A DNA stretch of 9,730 nucleotides. Source: a bacterium. GTDB lineage: Bacteria > DYJV01 > JALVYZ01. The stretch spans positions 1 to 9,730 of the forward strand of contig JALVYZ010000274.1 in assembly GCA_027037705.1 (NCBI GenBank), read 5' to 3'. Within the stretch, counting starts at the first letter, position 1. Each line of letters opens with the position of its first letter. A program made the translations under genes and the position numbers. Positions 203 through 9,730 of this stretch are shown in pieces. Below the pieces are notes generated by a model. The model was not told the origin of the DNA and did no database searches. It saw only the letters and a list, made by a program, of their open reading frames with translations.

Positions 203-1153
203 ATGGGGAAATTAATTTCAATAATAATTAGATCCTATAATGAAGAAAAATTTATTGGAAAACTTATTAATAAAATTTATTGTCAAAAGATTAATGAAAA
301 ATTTGAAGTAATACTTGTTGATTCTGGCTCAACAGATAATACAGTTTCTATTGCTTTAAAATATCCAGTAAAACTTATAAAAATTCCTAAAGAAAAATTT
401 TCATTTGGTTATTCTTTGAATAAAGGAATTGAAAATTCAGAAGGGGAAATTTGTGTTTTTGTAAGTGCTCACTGTATTCCATACAATAATTATTGGCTTG
501 CAGAAATAGTTAAACCATTTAACGATGAAAAAGTAGCTATGGTTTATGGGCGTCAGGTTGGGGATAAAAATTTTACAAAGTTTTCAGAACATCAGATCTT
601 TAAGAAGTGGTTCCCTGAAAATTTAATTGAAAATCAGAACTATCCTTTTGCTAACAATGCAAATTCTGCTATTAGAAAATCTGTATGGGAAAAAATAAAA
701 TTTGACGAAACATTAACAGGGCTTGAGGATGTAAAATGGGCTAAAGATGTTTTAGAAAAAGGATATAAATTGTATTATAATGCAAATGCTATAGTTTTTC
801 ACATCCATGAAGAAAGATATTCTCAAATTTACAACAGATACAAAAGAGAGGCAATTGCCTTAAAAAGAATTTTTCCTGAAATGAATTTTACATTTATAGA
901 TTTTATAAAATTTTTCATATCAAATACATTTAATGATTATATCAACGCAAAAAAAGAAAAAAAATTTTTCAAAAATATTTTTGAAATTCCTGTTTTTAGA
1001 TTCATGCAATTTTGGGGAACTTATAAAGGATACAAGTATAGATATAACTATTTAACAAAAAGACTAAGAGAAAGATTTTACTATCCTCCTGAAAAAAATA
1101 GAAAGGAAGTTTCATCTACAATTAAATTTCAACATGTTGAGGAATTAAAATGA
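203..1153 (+). CDS. family 2 glycosyltransferase (GT-A fold)
   Basis: A 316-residue predicted cytoplasmic transferase that would add one sugar from a nucleotide-sugar donor to a glycan acceptor. Residues 1-200 form the GT-A domain: opening strand LISIIIRSYNEEKFI, nucleotide-binding VDSGSTDNT at 39-47, and a catalytic-base region LEDVKWA around 173-179 (E175, D176). At the place where many GT2 enzymes have a DxD metal site, this one has SAHCIP (88-93), a variant also seen in rhamnosyltransferase-like GT2 members. Residues about 205-316 are a basic, aromatic C-terminal extension with no clear transmembrane helix. ATG 203 has no Shine-Dalgarno sequence, but it is the only sensible start for the domain. 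It is the first gene of the operon; its TGA overlaps the next ATG by 4 bp. Donor and acceptor are unknown. Confidence 0.9.
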   Translation: MGKLISIIIRSYNEEKFIGKLINKIYCQKINEKFEVILVDSGSTDNTVSIALKYPVKLIKIPKEKFSFGYSLNKGIENSEGEICVFVSAHCIPYNNYWLAEIVKPFNDEKVAMVYGRQVGDKNFTKFSEHQIFKKWFPENLIENQNYPFANNANSAIRKSVWEKIKFDETLTGLEDVKWAKDVLEKGYKLYYNANAIVFHIHEERYSQIYNRYKREAIALKRIFPEMNFTFIDFIKFFISNTFNDYINAKKEKKFFKNIFEIPVFRFMQFWGTYKGYKYRYNYLTKRLRERFYYPPEKNRKEVSSTIKFQHVEELK

Positions 1154-1809
1154 GATTTTATGCAATCGTTCCAGCTAAAGAGCACTCTGAAAGAGTTCCT
1201 AATAAAAATATCAGAAATTTTAATGGTAAACCTTTATTTTATTGGATAATTAATACATTAAAAAAGATTGAAGATATAGAAAAAATAATCCTTGATACAG
1301 ATTCAGATAAAATTTCTGATTTTGTCCTCAAATTTTTTCCTGATATTACAATTAATTTCAGACCTGAGCATCTACATGGAGACTTTGTTTCTATGAATAA
1401 AATAATTGAAAATATTTTGATTAACTATAATGATACAAATTTTTTTATTCAAACCCATGTGACAAATCCATGTTTAAAAAAAGAAACTATTGAAAAAGCT
1501 ATTGAAATTTTTAAAATTCAAAATGATTATGACTCTCTATTTACAGTTACAAAGATTCAGGCAAGGTTGTATGATAAAGATTTTAATCCATTAAATCACG
1601 ATCCTGATGAGTTAATTAGAACTCAAGATTTACCACAAGTTTATGAGGAAAATTCATGTTTATATATATTTTCAAGAAACAGTTTTTTTAAAAATAAATC
1701 AAGAATTGGTAGAAATCCTTATCTTTTTGAAATTAATAAGCTTGAGGCAATTGATATTGATACTGAAGAAGATTTCATTTTAGCGGAGAAGATTCATGAA
1801 ATTTTATGA
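1150..1809 (+). CDS. NeuA-like (acylneuraminate-type) cytidylyltransferase
   Basis: A 219-residue protein, close to the length of bacterial CMP-sugar synthetase catalytic domains. Known family members transfer CMP from CTP to 2-keto-3-deoxy sugar acids such as sialic acid, legionaminic acid or Kdo. Visible signatures are the nucleotide loop PAKEHSERVPNKN (8-20), DTDSD (49-53), RPEHLHGD (71-78) and the C-terminal metal-binding IDIDTEEDF with D202 and D204. The usual QPTSPLR stretch is replaced by QTHVTNP (101-107), and the loop has PAK instead of PAR, so this is a divergent subfamily and the substrate need not be a sialic acid. Start is supported by GAGGA at 1139-1143, six bases upstream, and by ATGA overlap with the preceding stop. 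No NeuB-type synthase is in the window. Confidence 0.88.
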   Translation: MRFYAIVPAKEHSERVPNKNIRNFNGKPLFYWIINTLKKIEDIEKIILDTDSDKISDFVLKFFPDITINFRPEHLHGDFVSMNKIIENILINYNDTNFFIQTHVTNPCLKKETIEKAIEIFKIQNDYDSLFTVTKIQARLYDKDFNPLNHDPDELIRTQDLPQVYEENSCLYIFSRNSFFKNKSRIGRNPYLFEINKLEAIDIDTEEDFILAEKIHEIL

Positions 1810-2392
1810 TATTTCAATGAAATTAAATAAAGATATAGTTCAATGGCCAGACTCTATTAGCTTTTCTCATATTTTCTATAATGAAAACACTTCTTTTATA
1901 AAAATGGACCTTCATACAGGTACTCATGTTGATGCACCAAAGCATTTTATTAAAAATGGTAAAAGTATTGATAATTTAGAAATAAAAAGATTTTTCGGGA
2001 AATGTCAGGTTATTGAAATAAATGATGATGTTATATCTTCTCAGTCATTTAAAAATTTTGAGATTAGAGCAGATAATATTATTTTGAAAACAAAAAATTC
2101 TGTAAATTTAAATACAGATTTTAACAAAAATTATGTTGCTTTAAATTCAGATGGTGCAAGGTTTCTTGCAGAAAAAAAAATTAATCTTGTTGGAATAGAT
2201 TATCTTTCAATTGAAATTTTTAATAATGAAAATTTTGAAGCTCATAAGATTTTACTTTCAAATGATATTATAATTTTAGAAGGACTTAATTTAAAAAATA
2301 TCTCACCAGGAATATATACTCTAATTGCTTTTCCTTTGTTAATAGAGAATGCAGAAGCATCACCTGTGAGGGCAGTTTTATTGGAGGGATAA
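1796..2392 (+). CDS. cyclase / kynurenine-formamidase-family metal-dependent hydrolase
   Basis: A 198-residue protein of the cyclase family (arylformamidase KynB, isatin hydrolase relatives), which hydrolyse amides or lactam-like bonds using a divalent metal. The metal motif HTGTHVDAP is intact at 40-48 (H40, H44, D46) and followed by H50. Later conserved positions are also present: H150 in EAHKILL, E162 in ILEGLNL, and the terminal ASPVRAVLLEG. No signal peptide is visible. Its start lies inside the cytidylyltransferase gene (14-bp overlap) with GGAG at 1785-1788 seven bases upstream, so the two are probably translationally coupled. A tryptophan-catabolism role is unlikely in this setting; it more plausibly acts on an amide, formyl or lactone intermediate of the activated building block. 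That role is inference from context. Confidence 0.85.
   Translation: MKFYDISMKLNKDIVQWPDSISFSHIFYNENTSFIKMDLHTGTHVDAPKHFIKNGKSIDNLEIKRFFGKCQVIEINDDVISSQSFKNFEIRADNIILKTKNSVNLNTDFNKNYVALNSDGARFLAEKKINLVGIDYLSIEIFNNENFEAHKILLSNDIIILEGLNLKNISPGIYTLIAFPLLIENAEASPVRAVLLEG
2383..2387 (+). promoter_or_regulatory. consensus ribosome binding site for the 2-hydroxyacid dehydrogenase
   Basis: GGAGG lies six bases before ATG 2394, inside the last codons of the cyclase gene. It is the strongest Shine-Dalgarno match in the operon and fixes the start, one base after the preceding stop codon. Confidence 0.75.
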
Positions 2393-2393
2393 A

Positions 2394-3311
2394 ATGTATA
2401 AAGTTATTATTTCAGCTCCATATATGCAAAAAGAGATTGATAGATTTATTGAAGAATTAAAAAATAAGAATATTGATATTTTTATACCTGAAGTAAAAGA
2501 AAGATTAGAAGAGTATGATTTATTGAAAATAATTGAAAATGCACACGGAATTATCTGTGGCGATGATAGAATAACAGAGAAAGTAATAGATAAAGCAAAA
2601 AAGTTAAAAGTTATTGTAAAATGGGGAACAGGAATTGATTCCATTAATAAAGAATATGCAGAGTCAAAAGGAATCAAAGTATTTAATACTCCAAATGCAT
2701 TTACAGAACCTGTGTCTGATACAGTTATTGGATTTATGTTATGTTTTGCAAGAAATATTATCAATAGTGATAAAATAATGAAACAAGGAAAATGGGAAAA
2801 GATAAAAGGCTTTACATTGCAGGAAAAAACTCTCGGGATAATTGGAGTTGGAAATATTGGAAGAAGAGTTGCAGAAAAGGCAAAAGTTTTTGGAATGAAA
2901 ATCATTGGAAATGATATAAAAAAAATAGAAGATCCTCCATGCAAAATGGTTTCTTTAAATGAATTATTAGAACAGGCTGATTTTGTATCAATTAATTGTG
3001 ATTTAAATGAAACTTCGTATCATTTAATAAATATAGAAAAGCTTAACCTTATGAAAAAAGATGCAATTATTATAAATACTGCAAGAGGACCAATTATAAA
3101 GGAAGAAGATTTAATCCTTGCATTAAAAAATAAAATAATAGCAGGAGCAGCTCTTGATGTTTTTGAGTATGAACCACTGCCAGAAGATTCTCCTTTAAGG
3201 AAAATGGATAATGTTATTCTATCACCGCATAATTCAAATTCAAGTAAATTATTTTGGGATAAAGTACATAGAAATTCTTTAAACATGCTTTATAAAGGAC
3301 TTGGATTATGA
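2394..3311 (+). CDS. NAD-dependent D-2-hydroxyacid dehydrogenase (phosphoglycerate-dehydrogenase-like)
   Basis: A 305-residue enzyme of the D-isomer 2-hydroxyacid dehydrogenase family, which interconverts 2-keto acids and D-2-hydroxy acids with NAD(H). The Rossmann loop is GVGNIG (151-156), and D174 at the end of the second strand suggests NAD rather than NADP. The catalytic triad is complete: R231 in NTARG, E260 in DVFEYEP and H279 in LSPHN. The N-terminal half (about 1-105) is the substrate domain, with KWGTGIDSIN (76-85). It lacks the C-terminal ACT regulatory domain of serine-pathway SerA, and the residues after the catalytic His (NSNSSKLFW) differ from the usual GGST pattern. Together with its place in the operon this argues for a dedicated glycan-precursor role instead of serine synthesis. 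It overlaps the next gene by 4 bp (ATGA). Confidence 0.9.
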   Translation: MYKVIISAPYMQKEIDRFIEELKNKNIDIFIPEVKERLEEYDLLKIIENAHGIICGDDRITEKVIDKAKKLKVIVKWGTGIDSINKEYAESKGIKVFNTPNAFTEPVSDTVIGFMLCFARNIINSDKIMKQGKWEKIKGFTLQEKTLGIIGVGNIGRRVAEKAKVFGMKIIGNDIKKIEDPPCKMVSLNELLEQADFVSINCDLNETSYHLINIEKLNLMKKDAIIINTARGPIIKEEDLILALKNKIIAGAALDVFEYEPLPEDSPLRKMDNVILSPHNSNSSKLFWDKVHRNSLNMLYKGLGL

Positions 3312-4024
3312 AAACAGTTTTTATAACAGGAACTTCAAATGGTATTGGAAAAGAAATTGCAAAATTTTTTAAAAAGAAAAAATGGTATGTAATAGGACTT
3401 GATAAAGTAAAACATGCTGAATTTACAGATATTTTTATTCATTACGATCTTGCAAAGCCTATTAATAAAAACTTTATTTTAGGAAAATTATCAAATATAA
3501 ATCAAATTAACCTATTAATAAACAATGCAGCCATTCAGATTGCAAAGCCTATTTTTGAATATAATCTTGAAGATTTGAACATTTCTTTTAAGGTTAATTG
3601 CATTGCAATTTTTGAACTTGTACAAATATTAAGGAAGAAATTAGATAGAGGTTCATCAATTATTAATATCTGTTCTGTTCATTCAATAGCAACTTCACCT
3701 AATTTATCAAGTTATGTGGCTTCAAAAGGTGCGGTTCTATCTTTGACAAGAGCTTTTGCTCTTGAACTTGCACCTTTAGGAATTAAAGTTAATTCAATAT
3801 CTCCAGGTGCAGTTAATACAGATATGTTAAAAGAAGGGTTAAAAAGAGCTGGAAAAAAGTATGATATTACAAAAAAAATTCCATTACAAAAGATAATAGA
3901 ACCTATTGAGATCGCAAAATTATGCTATTTTCTAACAAAAGAGGATATAACAGTTACTGGACAAAATTTTATAATTGACGGAGGAGTTACAGCACAGTTA
4001 TCATCAGAAATTTTTGAGGTGTAA
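3308..4024 (+). CDS. short-chain dehydrogenase/reductase (classical SDR)
   Basis: A 238-residue classical SDR, a normal length for the family. The cofactor loop TGTSNGIG is at 7-14, D32 after the second strand favours NAD(H), and NNAA is at 72-75. The catalytic tetrad N97, S123, Y136 and K140 is intact, with Y and K in YVASK, and the C-terminal GQNFIIDGG is typical. It should oxidise a hydroxyl or reduce a ketone on a small substrate, here most likely a precursor of the compound activated by the cytidylyltransferase. That substrate assignment is from context only. AAAGGA at 3294-3299, eight bases upstream, supports ATG 3308, which overlaps the preceding stop. The stop at 4022-4024 is followed after one base by the start of the next gene. 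Confidence 0.9.
   Translation: MKTVFITGTSNGIGKEIAKFFKKKKWYVIGLDKVKHAEFTDIFIHYDLAKPINKNFILGKLSNINQINLLINNAAIQIAKPIFEYNLEDLNISFKVNCIAIFELVQILRKKLDRGSSIINICSVHSIATSPNLSSYVASKGAVLSLTRAFALELAPLGIKVNSISPGAVNTDMLKEGLKRAGKKYDITKKIPLQKIIEPIEIAKLCYFLTKEDITVTGQNFIIDGGVTAQLSSEIFEV
4016..4021 (+). promoter_or_regulatory. ribosome binding site that sets the start of the three-domain protein
   Basis: GAGGTG lies four bases before ATG 4026. The reading frame stays open upstream to a TTG at 3975, but that would overlap the dehydrogenase gene by 50 bp and add 17 residues of no domain character. The site therefore favours ATG 4026. Confidence 0.7.
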
Positions 4025-4025
4025 A

Positions 4026-6632
4026 ATGAAAGCAAAAAATTGGATAATTACATTAATGGGTTACACAAATCCAGGGCATACAAACTGGTATCCCTGGAAA
4101 AAATTTTATGAAGTGTTTAATGAACTTGGATATGAAACAGAATGGGTTGAACTTGAAAATCTTGAAGTAAAAAAGGATAAAAGAAGGATATTTATCTGCT
4201 GGAATGAACCAACTTCTCTTGAATTAATTCATAGTGGTAAATATCAGGAACACGATATTTTACTTCAGAAATTAACATCTCTTGGAAAAGGATGTGATGA
4301 TATAAATTGGGGAGATAATCCTTATGAATTTTTTAAAAACTGGCATTGGCCATTATACAGAATGTTTGAAAGAATTTATGATTCTGGGTATAACATTTTT
4401 GCTTTTGGGTGTAAAACAGATCCTGAGCCTTTTCCTGAAAAAAAGAGAATATGTGATAAGTTAAAAGATAGAATTTTCTGGATTCCTTGGGGTTCAAGTC
4501 TTTATTCTTGGGAAGAAATCCAAAGAGCAAAACCAATAATGGATAATTTTGAATTTGATATAGGCTTTGTAGGTTCTATTTGGGGAATTAAAGGAAGGGG
4601 AAATATTGATACAGTAGAAGATTTTTTACTACCAATAATAAAGAACAAAAAATGTGCTCTTGGAGGTCAGGGAACCCCATTGGGCCCAGTTGATGATAAA
4701 ACTCATAAATATATTCTTAAAAAAAGTAAACTCTGTCCAATTATAAATGCACCAAGCTGGAGAATAGAAAAAGGAGTCCAGGATAGATTCTGGACAGTAT
4801 TTACATCAGGAAGATTTGGAGTTGTAGATTCAGAAGGAATTTACTACTTTTTTAATGAAGATGAAGTTGTATGTGAGACACATCCCGAAGAATATATTGA
4901 AAAGTCAATATATTTTTTAAACAATGTTGAAAAACAAAAACCTTACATTGAAAAAGTGCTCAAAAGAATAAAAAAAGAGTACAATTACTACATTACATGG
5001 GAAAGAATTCTCGCAAAAATTATTCCTGAAAATAAATATTCTATAGATAATTTGCAAAAATTGGACAGAATTGAAACATTTCATATTAATACTATTCATG
5101 GCCATACTCTTTTACTGATAAATAAAAATAAAATAAAAAAAATTGCAAAGGAAGTTGAAACCCCAGTAATAGTTGAAATTGGTTCTCAGAGAGATGCAGG
5201 TTCAACTTTGGAACTTGCAAAAATGTGCAATGAATTTGGTATTAAATTTATTACTGTTGATCCTGACGAAAATGTGTATTTAAGTGCAAAGAAAATTATA
5301 AAAGAAATCAATCCTGAATTTGAAGCTGTATGTAAAGAAGGTGAATTATTTTTACAAGAGTGGAACAAAAAGAATATAATAGCTGTTTATCTTGATGCAT
5401 TTGATATAGTAACATATTGGCCTCATAAAAATAAAACAATAGAATCTTATAGAAAAAGAAAAACAGAGCTAACAAATGAAAATGCCTATAAAATGCATCT
5501 TGAGGCTGCAAAAAATGTGTATGAAAAGATTGTGGATAATGGGTTTATATGTTTTGATGATACATGGCTTGATGAATACAACCAATGGGAAGGAAAAGGA
5601 AAAACCGCTGTCCCTTTTTTACTAAATAATGGATTTGTAATTAGTGATTATAAACCATGTGCTGTTTTAATGAAAAAAATAAAAAAGATAAAATATATGT
5701 TTGTCCCTTCAAATGACACTCATGTTAACTGGATGCTTCCTATTTATAATAAATTAGATTCTGCAATTTTCTTAGTTCATCCAATAGAAAAAGAAAATGC
5801 AAGATATTACCTTTATAAAAATCGTGTAAAATACTATACATTTAAACCAGGAATATTTAATGAAATTAGACCTGAAGTATTAATTTTTGGAAATGATTGG
5901 GGACCTCTTGAAAAACAAATTATTACTGAAGCTAAAAAATACAACATAAAAACAGTATGCATTCAGGAAGGACCATTATTTTTTGAAGAAATCTCTATGA
6001 ATAGAATGAAAAACTGTGATTTTGCTCTTATACAGGGACCTATTATGAAAAAATATCTTAATAGGAATAATATTATTATAACAGGAAATCCAAAGTATGA
6101 TTTTATAAAAGAAGAGCCTTTGCCAGATAAACCTGTAGTTATGATAAACTCAAATTTTACCTATGGCGTATATGAAGATGTTAGGGATAGCTGGGTAAAT
6201 GATGCTGTTTTAGCATGTGTTGATTGCAAGATAGATTATTTTATTTCAAAACATCCGAGAGATAGAGGGAACTTTCCAGATTATAATGTGATAGATTCAG
6301 ATGCATTTAAGATAAAAGATCAATTAAAAATGTGCTCTATTTTAATAACACGATTTTCAACTTTAATATATGAGGCTCTTTATATGGGGAGAGAAGTCAT
6401 ATACTACAATCCTCATGGAGAACCCTTTAAAATTTTTAATGAAGACGATTCTGGAGCAATTTTTAAAGCTAAAAATAGGAAAGAGCTTATTGAGGCAATC
6501 AATAATATTATTTCTGGGGAAAAGCCAAATAAAGAAATCATACTAAAATTTTTGAATAATCATTGTATAGGGATTGACAAAAAAAATACTGAAAGATGCA
6601 TTAAAGCCTTAGAGGAAATATATAATGGATAA
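4026..6632 (+). CDS. three-domain fusion: GT-B glycosyltransferase, methyltransferase-like, CDP-glycerol phosphotransferase-like
   Basis: An 868-residue protein with three segments. Residues about 1-333 look like a CgeB-type GT-B glycosyltransferase: FDIGFVGSIWG (about 177-187), then RFWTVFTSGRFGVVDSEG near 254-271 and a closing helical region. Residues about 346-553 resemble a class I SAM-dependent methyltransferase: VEIGSQRDAGST (383-394) as the cofactor motif, TVDPD at 410-414, YLDAFD near 455-460 and CFDDTW near 509-514. Residues about 555-868 resemble the GT-B fold of CDP-glycerol glycerophosphotransferases and UDP-GlcNAc 2-epimerases: TGNPKYD (686-692), SKHPRD (741-746) and ITRFSTLIYEALYMG (774-788). 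No membrane helix is obvious. It would extend and decorate a polymer, possibly using the CMP-linked product of the upstream enzymes; this is inference. It overlaps the next gene by 8 bp. Confidence 0.78.
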   Translation: MKAKNWIITLMGYTNPGHTNWYPWKKFYEVFNELGYETEWVELENLEVKKDKRRIFICWNEPTSLELIHSGKYQEHDILLQKLTSLGKGCDDINWGDNPYEFFKNWHWPLYRMFERIYDSGYNIFAFGCKTDPEPFPEKKRICDKLKDRIFWIPWGSSLYSWEEIQRAKPIMDNFEFDIGFVGSIWGIKGRGNIDTVEDFLLPIIKNKKCALGGQGTPLGPVDDKTHKYILKKSKLCPIINAPSWRIEKGVQDRFWTVFTSGRFGVVDSEGIYYFFNEDEVVCETHPEEYIEKSIYFLNNVEKQKPYIEKVLKRIKKEYNYYITWERILAKIIPENKYSIDNLQKLDRIETFHINTIHGHTLLLINKNKIKKIAKEVETPVIVEIGSQRDAGSTLELAKMCNEFGIKFITVDPDENVYLSAKKIIKEINPEFEAVCKEGELFLQEWNKKNIIAVYLDAFDIVTYWPHKNKTIESYRKRKTELTNENAYKMHLEAAKNVYEKIVDNGFICFDDTWLDEYNQWEGKGKTAVPFLLNNGFVISDYKPCAVLMKKIKKIKYMFVPSNDTHVNWMLPIYNKLDSAIFLVHPIEKENARYYLYKNRVKYYTFKPGIFNEIRPEVLIFGNDWGPLEKQIITEAKKYNIKTVCIQEGPLFFEEISMNRMKNCDFALIQGPIMKKYLNRNNIIITGNPKYDFIKEEPLPDKPVVMINSNFTYGVYEDVRDSWVNDAVLACVDCKIDYFISKHPRDRGNFPDYNVIDSDAFKIKDQLKMCSILITRFSTLIYEALYMGREVIYYNPHGEPFKIFNEDDSGAIFKAKNRKELIEAINNIISGEKPNKEIILKFLNNHCIGIDKKNTERCIKALEEIYNG

Positions 6633-8055
6633 TTTAGTTTCTGTTATTATCCCATCATTTAAAAGAACTGACACATTAAAAGAAGCAATATTAAGTGTAT
6701 GTAATCAAACTTATAAAAATTTTGAGATAATTGTAGTTAATGATTGTGGTATTGATACAAAATTTATAGTTGATGAGATTAGAGAAAATTATAATGTGAA
6801 TATAAAGTATATTCGTCATGAAAAAAATAGAGGACTTTCTGCTACCAGGAATACTGGGATAAAGAATGCAAAAGGGGATTATATAGCTTTTTTAGATGAT
6901 GATGATATTTTCTATCAAGACCATTTAGAAACATTAATAAATGCTTTAAAAGAAAATACTCAATATAAAATTGCCTACACAGCAGCAAAAGTTTTTACTA
7001 TAAGAAATAATAAAAAAATTGAAGAAGAATCATATAACTTCCGATTTTCAAAAGAACGTTTTTTTGTGGAGAATTATATTCCTGTAAATGCTTTTATGAT
7101 AAAAAAGGAAATATTTTTAAAAGAAAATTTTTGGTTTGATGAAAATTTAAGAGTTCTTGAAGATTATGACTTATGGATAAGATTAAGTCAAAAATATGAG
7201 TTTTTATATATCCCAAAGTTTACATGCGAAGTAAGAAGAGTTGATAAATCTTTATCAAAAAATCATTTAAAAATGTATCAAACTAAATTATATCTTTATG
7301 AAAAATATCCATTAAATAAAAATAAGTATCCTGAACTCTATTCAACAAGAGAAAAGGTTAAAGATGAATTTCAAAATGCTATTTATTTAATTATGAAAAG
7401 AAAAGAAAATTTAGATAAAATTTCAATTATTGTCCCTTGCATAAATAATACAGAATATTTAAAAAAACTTTTTGATTTTATAAAAAAATTTAATCCTTAT
7501 TTAAATAAAGAATTACTTATTGTAAATTCTAATACCAATACTTTATTTTGTAATGAAGTTAAAAATCTTTTATCTGAAGACTTTTTAAAAAATTGTGATT
7601 TTAACTATAAGTTTTTTAAAGAGAGATATAATCTTCCAAAATTGCTTAATCAAGGTGCATACATCTCAAATGGAAAATTTTTAATTTTTTTAATTAATGC
7701 TTTTCCTGGTCTTTACTCTTTTACATCAATGGTAAGATTTTATGAGTTGTTTGATAATTGTGGTATAATTGGTGGAAAAACCTTAACTAATCAAACTATT
7801 TCTTTGTCGCAAAATTTAAGATTATTAGTTAAAGTTTTTCACGAAAAAGAAAGATTTAAAATAGAGAATAATCAAATAGAAAGATTAGATATGATATATT
7901 CTCATATACTTTTTATTTCTAAAAAAGACTTTTATAAAATTGATGGATTTAACGAAAACTTAGATGACTTTTCTACTGTTTTGGACTTTACTTCAAAAAT
8001 AAAAGAAATAGGAAAATTTGTTTATTATAATCCCTTTTCAGAATGTGTTATTTAA
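6625..8055 (+). CDS. tandem family 2 glycosyltransferase, second domain degenerate
   Basis: A 476-residue protein. Residues 1-215 are a complete GT-A domain: VSVIIPSFKR (5-14), VVNDCG (37-42), NRGLSATRNTG (68-78), the metal-binding run DDDD (91-94) and the catalytic-base ED at 179-180 (LEDYDLWIRL). After a linker, residues about 264-476 repeat the fold: KISIIVPCINN opens it, LLNQGAYISNGKFLIFL (340-356) matches the helix and strand before the metal site, and DGFNENL is near 440-446. Here the DxD is replaced by INAF, and the protein stops where a conserved His normally follows, so this half is probably non-catalytic. AGAGGA at 6611-6616 supports ATG 6625. It is the last gene of the operon. Confidence 0.88.
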   Translation: MDNLVSVIIPSFKRTDTLKEAILSVCNQTYKNFEIIVVNDCGIDTKFIVDEIRENYNVNIKYIRHEKNRGLSATRNTGIKNAKGDYIAFLDDDDIFYQDHLETLINALKENTQYKIAYTAAKVFTIRNNKKIEEESYNFRFSKERFFVENYIPVNAFMIKKEIFLKENFWFDENLRVLEDYDLWIRLSQKYEFLYIPKFTCEVRRVDKSLSKNHLKMYQTKLYLYEKYPLNKNKYPELYSTREKVKDEFQNAIYLIMKRKENLDKISIIVPCINNTEYLKKLFDFIKKFNPYLNKELLIVNSNTNTLFCNEVKNLLSEDFLKNCDFNYKFFKERYNLPKLLNQGAYISNGKFLIFLINAFPGLYSFTSMVRFYELFDNCGIIGGKTLTNQTISLSQNLRLLVKVFHEKERFKIENNQIERLDMIYSHILFISKKDFYKIDGFNENLDDFSTVLDFTSKIKEIGKFVYYNPFSECVI

Positions 8056-8216: not shown

Positions 8217-8957
8217 TTAAGAAATAAAATTAATCAAATTAAAACTTTGAAAGTCTTTTCCTATAATAATATTATCTCGTTGTAGAAGATCTGTATCCTT
8301 AATTGACAGGTAGCTATGAAGTAGAATCAATTTTTTTATGTTTAATGATTTTTTTAAATTTAAGATTTCATTAATATTTAACTTTCCAGAGTTTAAAAAA
8401 CATATATCTGTATTTTTGAAAAAATTTAGATTATCTTTTTTAATATCAATATCACCAGTTATAGCAATATCTTTATCATTTAATTTAAATTTGATTGAGA
8501 TATTTGATGAGTGATTGGAAAATAGAGTTTTAATTTTTAAATCTTTAATATAAAAGATACCATCAGATTTTATAATTTTAATTTTTACTATCTCATTAAA
8601 GTTATCTGGAGCAGGTAGTAATCTTCTTATCATATTAATAATTTCAAGAAATTCTTCGCCTGAATACAAATATAAAAGATTTTTCTTTTTATTTTTTGAA
8701 TAAAAACAAGAATGTAAAAAAGGAATTAAATCGCAGAAATGATCAGGATGTGAATGGGAAATAATAATACGAGAGATATTTTCATTTGAAAATCCAAGTT
8801 TTATTAAATTAGAATACACCCTGTATCCAAAATCATAAATTATATTTTCATTATTATATTTTATTAATAATGAAGTATTTGCCTTATCAGGTTCAATATT
8901 GCAAGTTCCGGAACCTAAAATAATAATTTTAGCTTTTACATCTTTTAAGTTTTTCAT
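8217..8957 (-). CDS. MBL-fold metal-dependent hydrolase (RNase Z-like)
   Basis: A 246-residue metallo-beta-lactamase-fold protein, slightly shorter than RNase Z. It opens with the strand KIIILGSGTC (10-19). The dinuclear metal site is complete: HSHPDH at 68-73, H149 in FSNHSS, D169 in ITGD and H214 in ILLHSY. This arrangement resembles the RNase Z / phosphodiesterase branch, which cleaves phosphodiester bonds, but the RNase Z flexible arm is not evident and other hydrolase activities are possible. No signal peptide is seen, so it is probably cytoplasmic. ATG 8957 lies inside the nucleotidyltransferase gene (29-bp overlap) without a Shine-Dalgarno sequence; no later in-frame Met exists before the first strand, so coupled translation is likely. 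The pairing suggests a shared pathway, but substrate is unknown. Confidence 0.85.
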   Translation of the reverse strand: MKNLKDVKAKIIILGSGTCNIEPDKANTSLLIKYNNENIIYDFGYRVYSNLIKLGFSNENISRIIISHSHPDHFCDLIPFLHSCFYSKNKKKNLLYLYSGEEFLEIINMIRRLLPAPDNFNEIVKIKIIKSDGIFYIKDLKIKTLFSNHSSNISIKFKLNDKDIAITGDIDIKKDNLNFFKNTDICFLNSGKLNINEILNLKKSLNIKKLILLHSYLSIKDTDLLQRDNIIIGKDFQSFNLINFIS

Positions 8958-9528
8958 GAAGGTTGTTTTCTATTATATAATTATAAACAGCTTTTGGAAC
9001 AAGTTTTGACCAATCTTCGTTATTGATTATTCTTCTTCTTACTTCTGTGCCAGTAGTGAATCGTGTGCTCATATCTCTTTCCCATAATATTTTTATTTTG
9101 AATCCAATTTTTTTAAACATTTCTACTTTTTGTTTACCCCATTCATCGTAGATTGTTATAAATATAGTAGAATTAATTGGAATATAATATTTCAAAAATT
9201 CAATTTTATGTATGGGGAATGGAACTATATCAAATTCTTCAGGATTAACCCCTTCATCTATAAGAGCATCTTTTATCATTTTCATTCTATCATAAAAGGT
9301 AAATGGAAATACTGGATTATTTACACTTCTAAAAGGTTCTAAAAGATTATTTCTATCATAATCATGCATTGTTTTGTCATAATTAAAATAAGCTCTTTCA
9401 GGATCACAATCAGTAATTCCAATTATTAGATATTCACAATTCTTTTTTGCTTCTAAAAGATACTCCATATGTCCCCAATGAATAATATGAAATCTCCCTT
9501 GTGCTATCCCTGTTTTTATTTTTTTCAT
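8929..9528 (-). CDS. NadM-like nucleotidyltransferase (NMN adenylyltransferase family)
   Basis: A 199-residue HxGH-type nucleotidyltransferase. The N-terminal GRFHIIHWGH (11-20) carries the ATP-binding H17-x-G-H20, FYDRMKMI (78-85) matches the family's ERxxMI helix, and TGTEVRR (159-165) is the second nucleotide motif, followed by WSKLVPKAVYNYI as in NadM proteins. The family normally joins NMN and ATP to make NAD, but related enzymes use CTP. An extra stretch of about 25 residues (about 43-70) separates the first strand from the ERxxMI region compared with compact NadM, so the substrate is uncertain. The neighbouring MBL-fold gene overlaps it by 29 bp. Start ATG 9528 has only a weak AGG 11 bases upstream. 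A role in NAD supply or in activating a glycan precursor are both possible. Confidence 0.78.
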   Translation of the reverse strand: MKKIKTGIAQGRFHIIHWGHMEYLLEAKKNCEYLIIGITDCDPERAYFNYDKTMHDYDRNNLLEPFRSVNNPVFPFTFYDRMKMIKDALIDEGVNPEEFDIVPFPIHKIEFLKYYIPINSTIFITIYDEWGKQKVEMFKKIGFKIKILWERDMSTRFTTGTEVRRRIINNEDWSKLVPKAVYNYIIENNLHEKLKRCKS

Positions 9529-9615: not shown

Positions 9616-9730
9616 ATGGAAGTTTCTATCATAATACCTGTATATAACAAAGTTAAATTAACATTAAACTGTATAAGCTCTATTTTAAATTCAAAAAATT
9701 CTACTTCATTTGAAATAATAGTTTCTGATG
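9616..9730 (+). CDS. family 2 glycosyltransferase, N-terminal part (runs off window)
   Basis: The first 38 codons are visible and the gene continues beyond 9730. The start MEVSIIIPVYNKVKL is the classic opening strand and loop of GT-A family 2 transferases, and FEIIVSD matches the second strand that ends in the nucleotide-binding Asp. It is divergently oriented from the nucleotidyltransferase gene and probably begins a new transcription unit that continues the glycan locus. There is no Shine-Dalgarno sequence before ATG 9616. Specificity cannot be judged from this fragment. Confidence 0.85.
   Translation, partial: MEVSIIIPVYNKVKLTLNCISSILNSKNSTSFEIIVSD

Follow-up and report, generated by a model that had tools for sequence, protein, structure and literature searches.

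Multi-module enzymes that join two glycosyltransferase (GT) units in one protein are already known, and proteins combining a methyltransferase with GT modules, or a terminating with a polymerising GT module, are established (PMC11231755). The known terminators that control chain length possess a coiled-coil ruler, and those of the methyl-phosphate type carry a kinase as well (PMC11231755). A GT, a cytidylyltransferase, a methyltransferase and a TagF-like transferase form a known set of activities in the Type A flagellin glycan of C. difficile and the FgtA system of P. aeruginosa, where FgtA fuses the GT to the phosphotransferase (PMC10714395). KrkA, a CMP-Kdo transferase, relies on a Glu as general base, and its CMP phosphate is held by the His of an HP motif (PMC12887879). 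Here we describe a bacterial protein in which a methyltransferase lies between two GT-type units, each of the three domains being of a known kind. It is proposed, with a probability of about 0.5, that this fusion is a single-chain glycan-assembly enzyme, which would synthesize a glycan, with a CMP-activated acidic sugar as one of its building blocks, and O-methylate it.

Gene organization of the locus

The window, that is, the whole stretch of DNA analysed (9,730 nucleotides), is one entire contig (G000:C274) of a 2.05-Mb, 93%-complete genome assembled in 496 contigs. The fusion gene belongs to a seven-gene operon in which neighbouring genes overlap or directly adjoin one another. Its six other members are as follows.

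203..1153, + strand: GT2a, a GT2 glycosyltransferase (PF00535, 1.3e-26)
1150..1809, + strand: CMP-sugar synthetase, CTP_transf_3, PseF/KdsB-like (PF02348, 1.9e-30)
1796..2392, + strand: metal-dependent hydrolase of the cyclase/kynurenine-formamidase kind (PF04199, 1.6e-22; TIGR03035, 143 bits against a cut-off of 223)
2394..3311, + strand: D-2-hydroxyacid dehydrogenase (PF02826, 2.9e-60)
3308..4024, + strand: short-chain dehydrogenase/reductase, SDR (PF13561, 2.2e-39)
6625..8055, + strand: GT2b, a tandem GT2 protein with PF00535 in two stretches, sharing 8 bases with the fusion gene

The CMP-sugar synthetase stays below the equivalog cut-offs (TIGR03584, 99 bits against a cut-off of 205.7). 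A search for NeuB (PF03102), which belongs to the canonical nonulosonic acid pathway, found no copy in the 93%-complete source genome, so the operon probably makes a sugar other than a standard nonulosonic acid. This search thus located no sugar-acid synthase, which counts against the proposed pathway. Flagellin genes are present in the same genome, along with further genes of the flagellum, which makes flagellin a possible acceptor of the glycan.

Beyond the operon, an RNase-Z-like metallo-hydrolase gene overlaps an archaeal-type NMN-adenylyltransferase-like gene at 8217-9528 on the minus strand, both far below the equivalog cut-offs and facing the operon. By eye, the start of another GT2-like gene is seen at the right edge (9616-9730), and positions 1-90, at the left edge, look like the end of a DUF72-like protein.

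Domain architecture of the fusion protein

The fusion gene is one uninterrupted frame on the forward strand, which opens with the ATG at 4026 and closes with its stop codon at 6632 (868 codons, 868 residues, no internal stop). Its ATG lies one base past the SDR stop, and the ribosome-site-like sequence GAGGTG is found immediately 5'. The initial annotation had described this frame as a three-domain fusion, which the open frame, the homology found for each domain and the tight operon bear out. The domains are arranged as follows.

4026..5024, + strand: N-terminal CgeB-like (PF13524) glycosyltransferase domain, residues 1-333, based on PF13524 and a free-standing homologue on contig L033
5025..5093, + strand: linker, residues 334-356, from the end of the L033 homologue to the conserved HGH-LL start of the methyltransferase
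5094..5684, + strand: class I SAM-dependent methyltransferase domain, residues 357-553, based on a 10-member alignment, the AF2 model and structural matches
5691..6629, + strand: C-terminal GT-B domain, residues 556-868, based on the AF2 model, GT-B matches, and Neorhizobium and other relatives

The edges drawn earlier agree with these limits within a few residues, the methyltransferase starting nearer to 357 than to 346. The three domains fill the chain, with inter-domain linkers of ~23 and <5 residues. Sequence comparison confirms that they represent real homology and not chance. Each of the three also exists elsewhere on proteins that lack the other two. We did not find this domain order (CgeB-like GT, methyltransferase, GT-B) in any other protein of the collections covered, in searches that were of limited depth and did not extend to a full protein database; no full-length relative was detected among phages, plasmids and viral contigs, and the second genome of the same phylum (two genomes in the set) has no match. 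Searches with the whole protein or single domains against sets of 241-386 relatives' genomes returned weak, partial GT matches and nothing more, and PDB sequence searches gave nothing significant for the whole protein, the N-terminal domain or the methyltransferase. In the literature covered, neither the cassette nor the fusion architecture was the subject of any paper we came across.

Since the assembly is fragmented and the window makes up one of its contigs, separate genes might have been joined by an assembly artefact. However, the in-frame joins fall exactly at domain edges, the parts are functionally related, and operon spacing is normal on both sides. GC3 of the three segments is even (0.20, 0.16 and 0.20), resembles that of the neighbouring genes and gives no sign of a chimaeric join. 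We regard an artefact as very improbable.

Our Pfam scan of the whole protein matched residues 209-329 to PF13524 (1.8e-5, 25.1 bits), just above the cut-off of 25. The free-standing homologue (339 residues, 55% identity, E 1e-122), encoded on L033 (IMG/VR 3300027779_002770), itself matches PF13524 with 49.7 bits (4.9e-13). Because this contig carries the domain alone amid sugar genes, both the edge of the N-terminal domain and its role in glycan synthesis are supported. The AF2 model of the N-terminal part, made from an alignment of two sequences, has pLDDT mostly <60, and the GT-B fold assigned to this part rests on the Pfam match and the 55%-identical homologue. Structure prediction of the segments, as suggested earlier, gave a class I methyltransferase for the middle and a GT-B fold for the C-terminal segment, and an unreliable model for the N-terminal one.

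On L033 the N-domain homologue adjoins an SDR and a CTP_transf_3 enzyme, the latter only 26% identical to the cytidylyltransferase of the window, and a PIG-L deacetylase, a DegT aminotransferase and a GT29-like gene lie nearby. The stretch 2215-10436 of this virus-labelled contig, which holds GT29-like (sialyltransferase), DegT aminotransferase, epimerase, SDR, CMP-sugar-synthetase-like and PIG-L genes, is a sugar cluster on a possible phage.

The methyltransferase domain

The middle segment had no match in the whole-protein Pfam scan. Two alphaproteobacterial relatives of residues 358-556 were recovered from plasmids by tblastn. Class I methyltransferase motifs were visible in a three-row alignment, and a scan of ~85,000 species genomes added seven more relatives, all from Alphaproteobacteria. 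These nine relatives are 32-38% identical to the middle segment, and all ten members touch PF13578 (best 1.9e-5). EIG, GST, TVDxD, LDAxD and CFDDTW are invariant in the ten aligned sequences, and the motifs are placed as follows in the window protein.

Residues 384-386: EIG, the E/DxG motif I
Residues 392-394: GST
Residues D412 and D414: within TVDxD, D412 being the acidic residue after strand 407-411
Residues D457, D511 and D512: putative metal ligands

The AF2 model of residues 357-553 (pLDDT ~90 over most of the length) has the class I methyltransferase fold. Its nearest structures are nearly tied: MeT1 (Z 16.2, rmsd 3.1 over 164 residues), a bacterial O-methyltransferase (15.9), COMT (15.5) and MycF (15.3), within a broader range of matches at Z 14-16. 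The invariant motifs, the modelled fold and Z scores up to 16.2 agree with the earlier description of this segment as SAM-methyltransferase-like. In the model, D457 follows strand 4 and D511-D512 stand at the end of strand 5, and all three are invariant in the ten members. Presumably these are the positions at which COMT and MycF hold their metal ligands, the likeness to metal enzymes being one of fold only. The model supports an O-methyltransferase function for the middle domain, which is probably metal-dependent.

The C-terminal GT-B domain

A separate scan of the C-terminal segment gave matches to PF04464 (1.2e-6) and PF00534 (2.7e-6) that are about equally good, both above cut-off. Its AF2 model (pLDDT 76.7, pTM 0.69) aligns with WecB, SpnG and MurG at Z 13-14.2 over 260-290 residues, in line with the GT-B fold that had been predicted for this outer segment. 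UDP-GlcNAc epimerases and NDP-sugar GTs are the best structural matches and are tied in Z; Foldseek matches include 8a0m (a capsular polysaccharide synthesis multienzyme) and TarL, and a PDB sequence search with the domain profile gave a weak GT-B signal. With this fold and that of the middle part, and with the domain matches, the arrangement of two GT-type units around a SAM-methyltransferase for glycan synthesis is supported.

The conserved residues of the C-terminal domain are E648-G, H743-P, R776-F and E783. The catalytic histidines of TagF are H444 and H584. Mutation of either His inactivates TagF-like polymerases (PMC5974469). In an alignment of the domain with true PF04464 members and TIGR04396-like proteins, in which MAFFT misplaced the N-lobe of one reference and of which hhalign supports the C-lobe part only, a Glu is aligned with the catalytic His of WHG/QHG in 6/6 members, and the His of HP is kept. 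Since one required catalytic His is replaced by Glu, a standard phosphotransferase activity of the TagF type is improbable for this domain. The label "CDP-glycerol-phosphotransferase-like", given in the initial annotation, is too specific: the PF04464 match (28.2 bits, cut-off 22.1) is confined to positions 234-365 (of 367), the four relatives tested show no match to this family, and the activating enzyme of the operon is of the CMP-sugar type (CTP_transf_3), not the TagD type.

Because KrkA also uses a Glu base together with an HP His, a role as CMP-sugar transferase is plausible by analogy. CMP-sialyl/Kdo transferases carry a (K/R)xHP motif, which is displaced by one position in the domain family, most members having S-(K/R)-H-P, and where a Ser pair would contact the CMP phosphate, a single Ser/Thr is constant. 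No CMP-Kdo-transferase structure is among the fold matches listed for the domain.

The best relatives of the domain are the C-terminal parts of GT2-fusion proteins from Neorhizobium, Pseudogemmobacter, a Paracoccus MAG, a Beijerinckiaceae MAG and two virus-labelled contigs. A GT2b-like domain precedes the C-domain relative in L008/L026, L023, L024, L025, L031 and L032; in the window, GT2b lies directly 3' of the C-domain, whereas in the relatives the GT2 domain is fused ahead of it. L031 (4873-7422) and L032 (4864-7413) are near-identical virus-labelled contigs from different samples, each with an 849-residue GT2 + C-domain gene near lysozyme-like genes.

These fusions, the PF04464 score above cut-off, the TarL and Bcs3 matches and the flagellins of the genome would also fit a phosphodiester-linked modification of the C. 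difficile Type A or P. aeruginosa FgtA kind, in which the GT adds a sugar, the TagF-like domain moves a phospho-compound from a CDP donor and the methyltransferase methylates it on N or O. However, the substitution of the TagF catalytic His by Glu in all six aligned relatives and the CMP-sugar class of the operon cytidylyltransferase argue against it. Moreover, neither a CTP:phospho-amino-acid cytidylyltransferase nor a phosphoserine-phosphatase-like partner is found among the proteins of the window. We consider such a modification rather unlikely, and prefer assembly of a glycan with a CMP-activated acidic sugar.

Recurrent linkage in relatives

In six of the nine alphaproteobacterial loci (L002, L003/L014, L007, L008, L011 and L012), the methyltransferase adjoins a three-gene cassette of relatives of GT2a (38-42% identity to the window), the CMP-sugar synthetase (43-45%) and the 2-hydroxyacid dehydrogenase (~33%). 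No partner accompanies the synthetase more constantly than GT2a, so it may be GT2a, not the fusion, that acts as the CMP-sugar transferase. In Neorhizobium, the cassette, a GT2 + C-domain protein and the methyltransferase are found within ~9 kb, where the C-domain relative is separated from the methyltransferase segment by ~3 kb and from the cassette by ~2 kb. This is the only genome with the C-domain near the methyltransferase, the C-domain gene being on another contig in the others. Of the six other genomes that bear the methyltransferase, three have C-domain relatives, as detected with a two-row profile (window and Neorhizobium) built before those three genomes were known; 288 other Alphaproteobacteria gave no comparably strong C-domain match, and 336 others no strong methyltransferase match. 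The cassette also occurs on Thalassovita and Pararhizobium plasmids with no methyltransferase match within 12 kb.

On the Thalassovita gelatinovora plasmid pAge77 (L039, 2804-16357), the cassette is located near kpsF, kdsB-like, kdsA, SDR, SMP-30 lactonase and MptE-like (DUF115) genes, and in Sulfitobacter sp. D7 (L014) SDR and SMP-30 genes are likewise upstream of it. The SDR, SMP-30 and Kdo-type genes near the cassette hint at a sugar-acid pathway.

Relatives of the methyltransferase, the C-domain and the N-domain are all located near cytidylyltransferase genes, the last in a different cytidylyltransferase setting, which upholds the suggested link to a cytidine-activated donor. This recurrence suggests related pathways and weighs against a fusion by mere convenience, in which three independent pathway enzymes would be joined for co-expression, with no channelling and possibly with different acceptors. 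Such a fusion, with which the separate occurrence of each part and the tight linkers agree, appears quite unlikely to us.

The initial annotation had proposed that methylation caps the chain and controls its length. The GT domains would then build an O-antigen- or capsule-like chain whose growth is stopped by end methylation, as in WbdD, K. pneumoniae O7 ORF6 and WbbB. The presence of MeT1, a reducing-end 1-O-methyltransferase (PMC9883506), among the top structural matches, and the established co-occurrence of such modules in single proteins, speak for this function. However, 868 residues with the linkers given above leave no room for a kinase or coiled-coil ruler, and neither stands beside the methyltransferase as in terminators of the WbdD/O7 ORF6 type. 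Furthermore, the methyltransferase relatives carry different N-terminal segments, in which no polymerase domain is recognised, and several of their loci have DUF115/MptE-like genes nearby. The cap is unsupported by these data, and we judge a polymerase-terminator unlikely; synthesis and O-methylation of a glycan by a single-chain assembly enzyme remains our preferred reading.

Proposed pathway

From the domains, the folds of the middle and C-terminal parts, the motifs, the operon and the linkage we infer the following donors, acceptors, reaction order, methyl position and metal use. The cytidylyltransferase, 2-hydroxyacid dehydrogenase, SDR and hydrolase of the operon would make the CMP-activated acidic sugar. 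One sugar would be transferred by the CgeB-like domain and one by the C-terminal GT-B domain, for which the CMP-sugar is the most likely donor, with Glu648 as putative base and His743-Pro in nucleotide binding. Assembly would be sequential, and at least one step would draw on the CMP-sugar. The middle domain would use SAM and a divalent metal at Asp457/Asp511/Asp512 for O-methylation of the product or of the transferred sugar, and the GT2 neighbours may add more sugars. The likely product would be a short methylated glycan attached to some structure of the surface, for instance flagellin or an envelope polymer.

A further reading, which we advance tentatively, is that the C-domain and its alphaproteobacterial and virus-borne relatives constitute a new GT-B family using an undescribed, cassette-made CMP-activated acid and served by its own O-methyltransferase family; the window protein would be a three-activity version joined to a second GT. 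Fusions indicate which separate enzymes cooperate. Taken with the alphaproteobacterial loci that hold two of the parts separately, this one points to a rare CMP-activated-sugar module with a dedicated methyltransferase and transferases. The module occurs in distant bacteria and on plasmids, and its transferase domains are found on contigs labelled as viral too. If the proposal is true, a substrate pathway could be named for families annotated just as hypothetical or generic glycosyltransferase.

Comparison with known systems

WbdD, K. pneumoniae O7 ORF6 and O12 WbbB share with the window protein a methyltransferase and/or several GT modules per chain, but carry a coiled-coil ruler and, in the methyl-phosphate types, a kinase, both of which the window protein lacks (PMC11231755). 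The C. difficile CD0240-CD0244 proteins and P. aeruginosa FgtA (PA1091) resemble the locus in the cooperation of a GT, a cytidylyltransferase, a methyltransferase and a TagF-like transferase, FgtA being a fusion of GT and transferase; they differ in that the methyltransferase is separate and the activating enzyme is of another class, and the phosphothreonine enzymes are missing from the window (PMC10714395). The TagF-like capsule polymerases (Cps1B, Cps7D, CslB and Bcs3) are also long proteins with a GT-A or GT-B domain and a TagF-like GT-B domain. They possess two catalytic His together with five TagF motifs, and a methyltransferase is not mentioned (PMC5974469), whereas in the window protein one His is Glu and the two GT units are separated by a methyltransferase. 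KrkA (GT140) and KpsS1, the CMP-Kdo transferases, have in common with the C-domain the GT-B fold, the N-lobe Glu and the HP histidine at the nucleotide phosphate, but in the window protein (K/R)xHP is shifted by one, no Asp nucleophile is evident and there is no sequence match (PMC12887879). Finally, the O-methyltransferases of the MeT1/MycF/COMT type, of which MeT1 is a sugar 1-O-methyltransferase and MycF a sugar O-methyltransferase, share with the middle domain the fold (Z 15-16, rmsd 2.3-3.1) and the D...DD pattern past the fourth and fifth strands; they differ at 8-16% identity, and the window enzyme is fused between GT domains.
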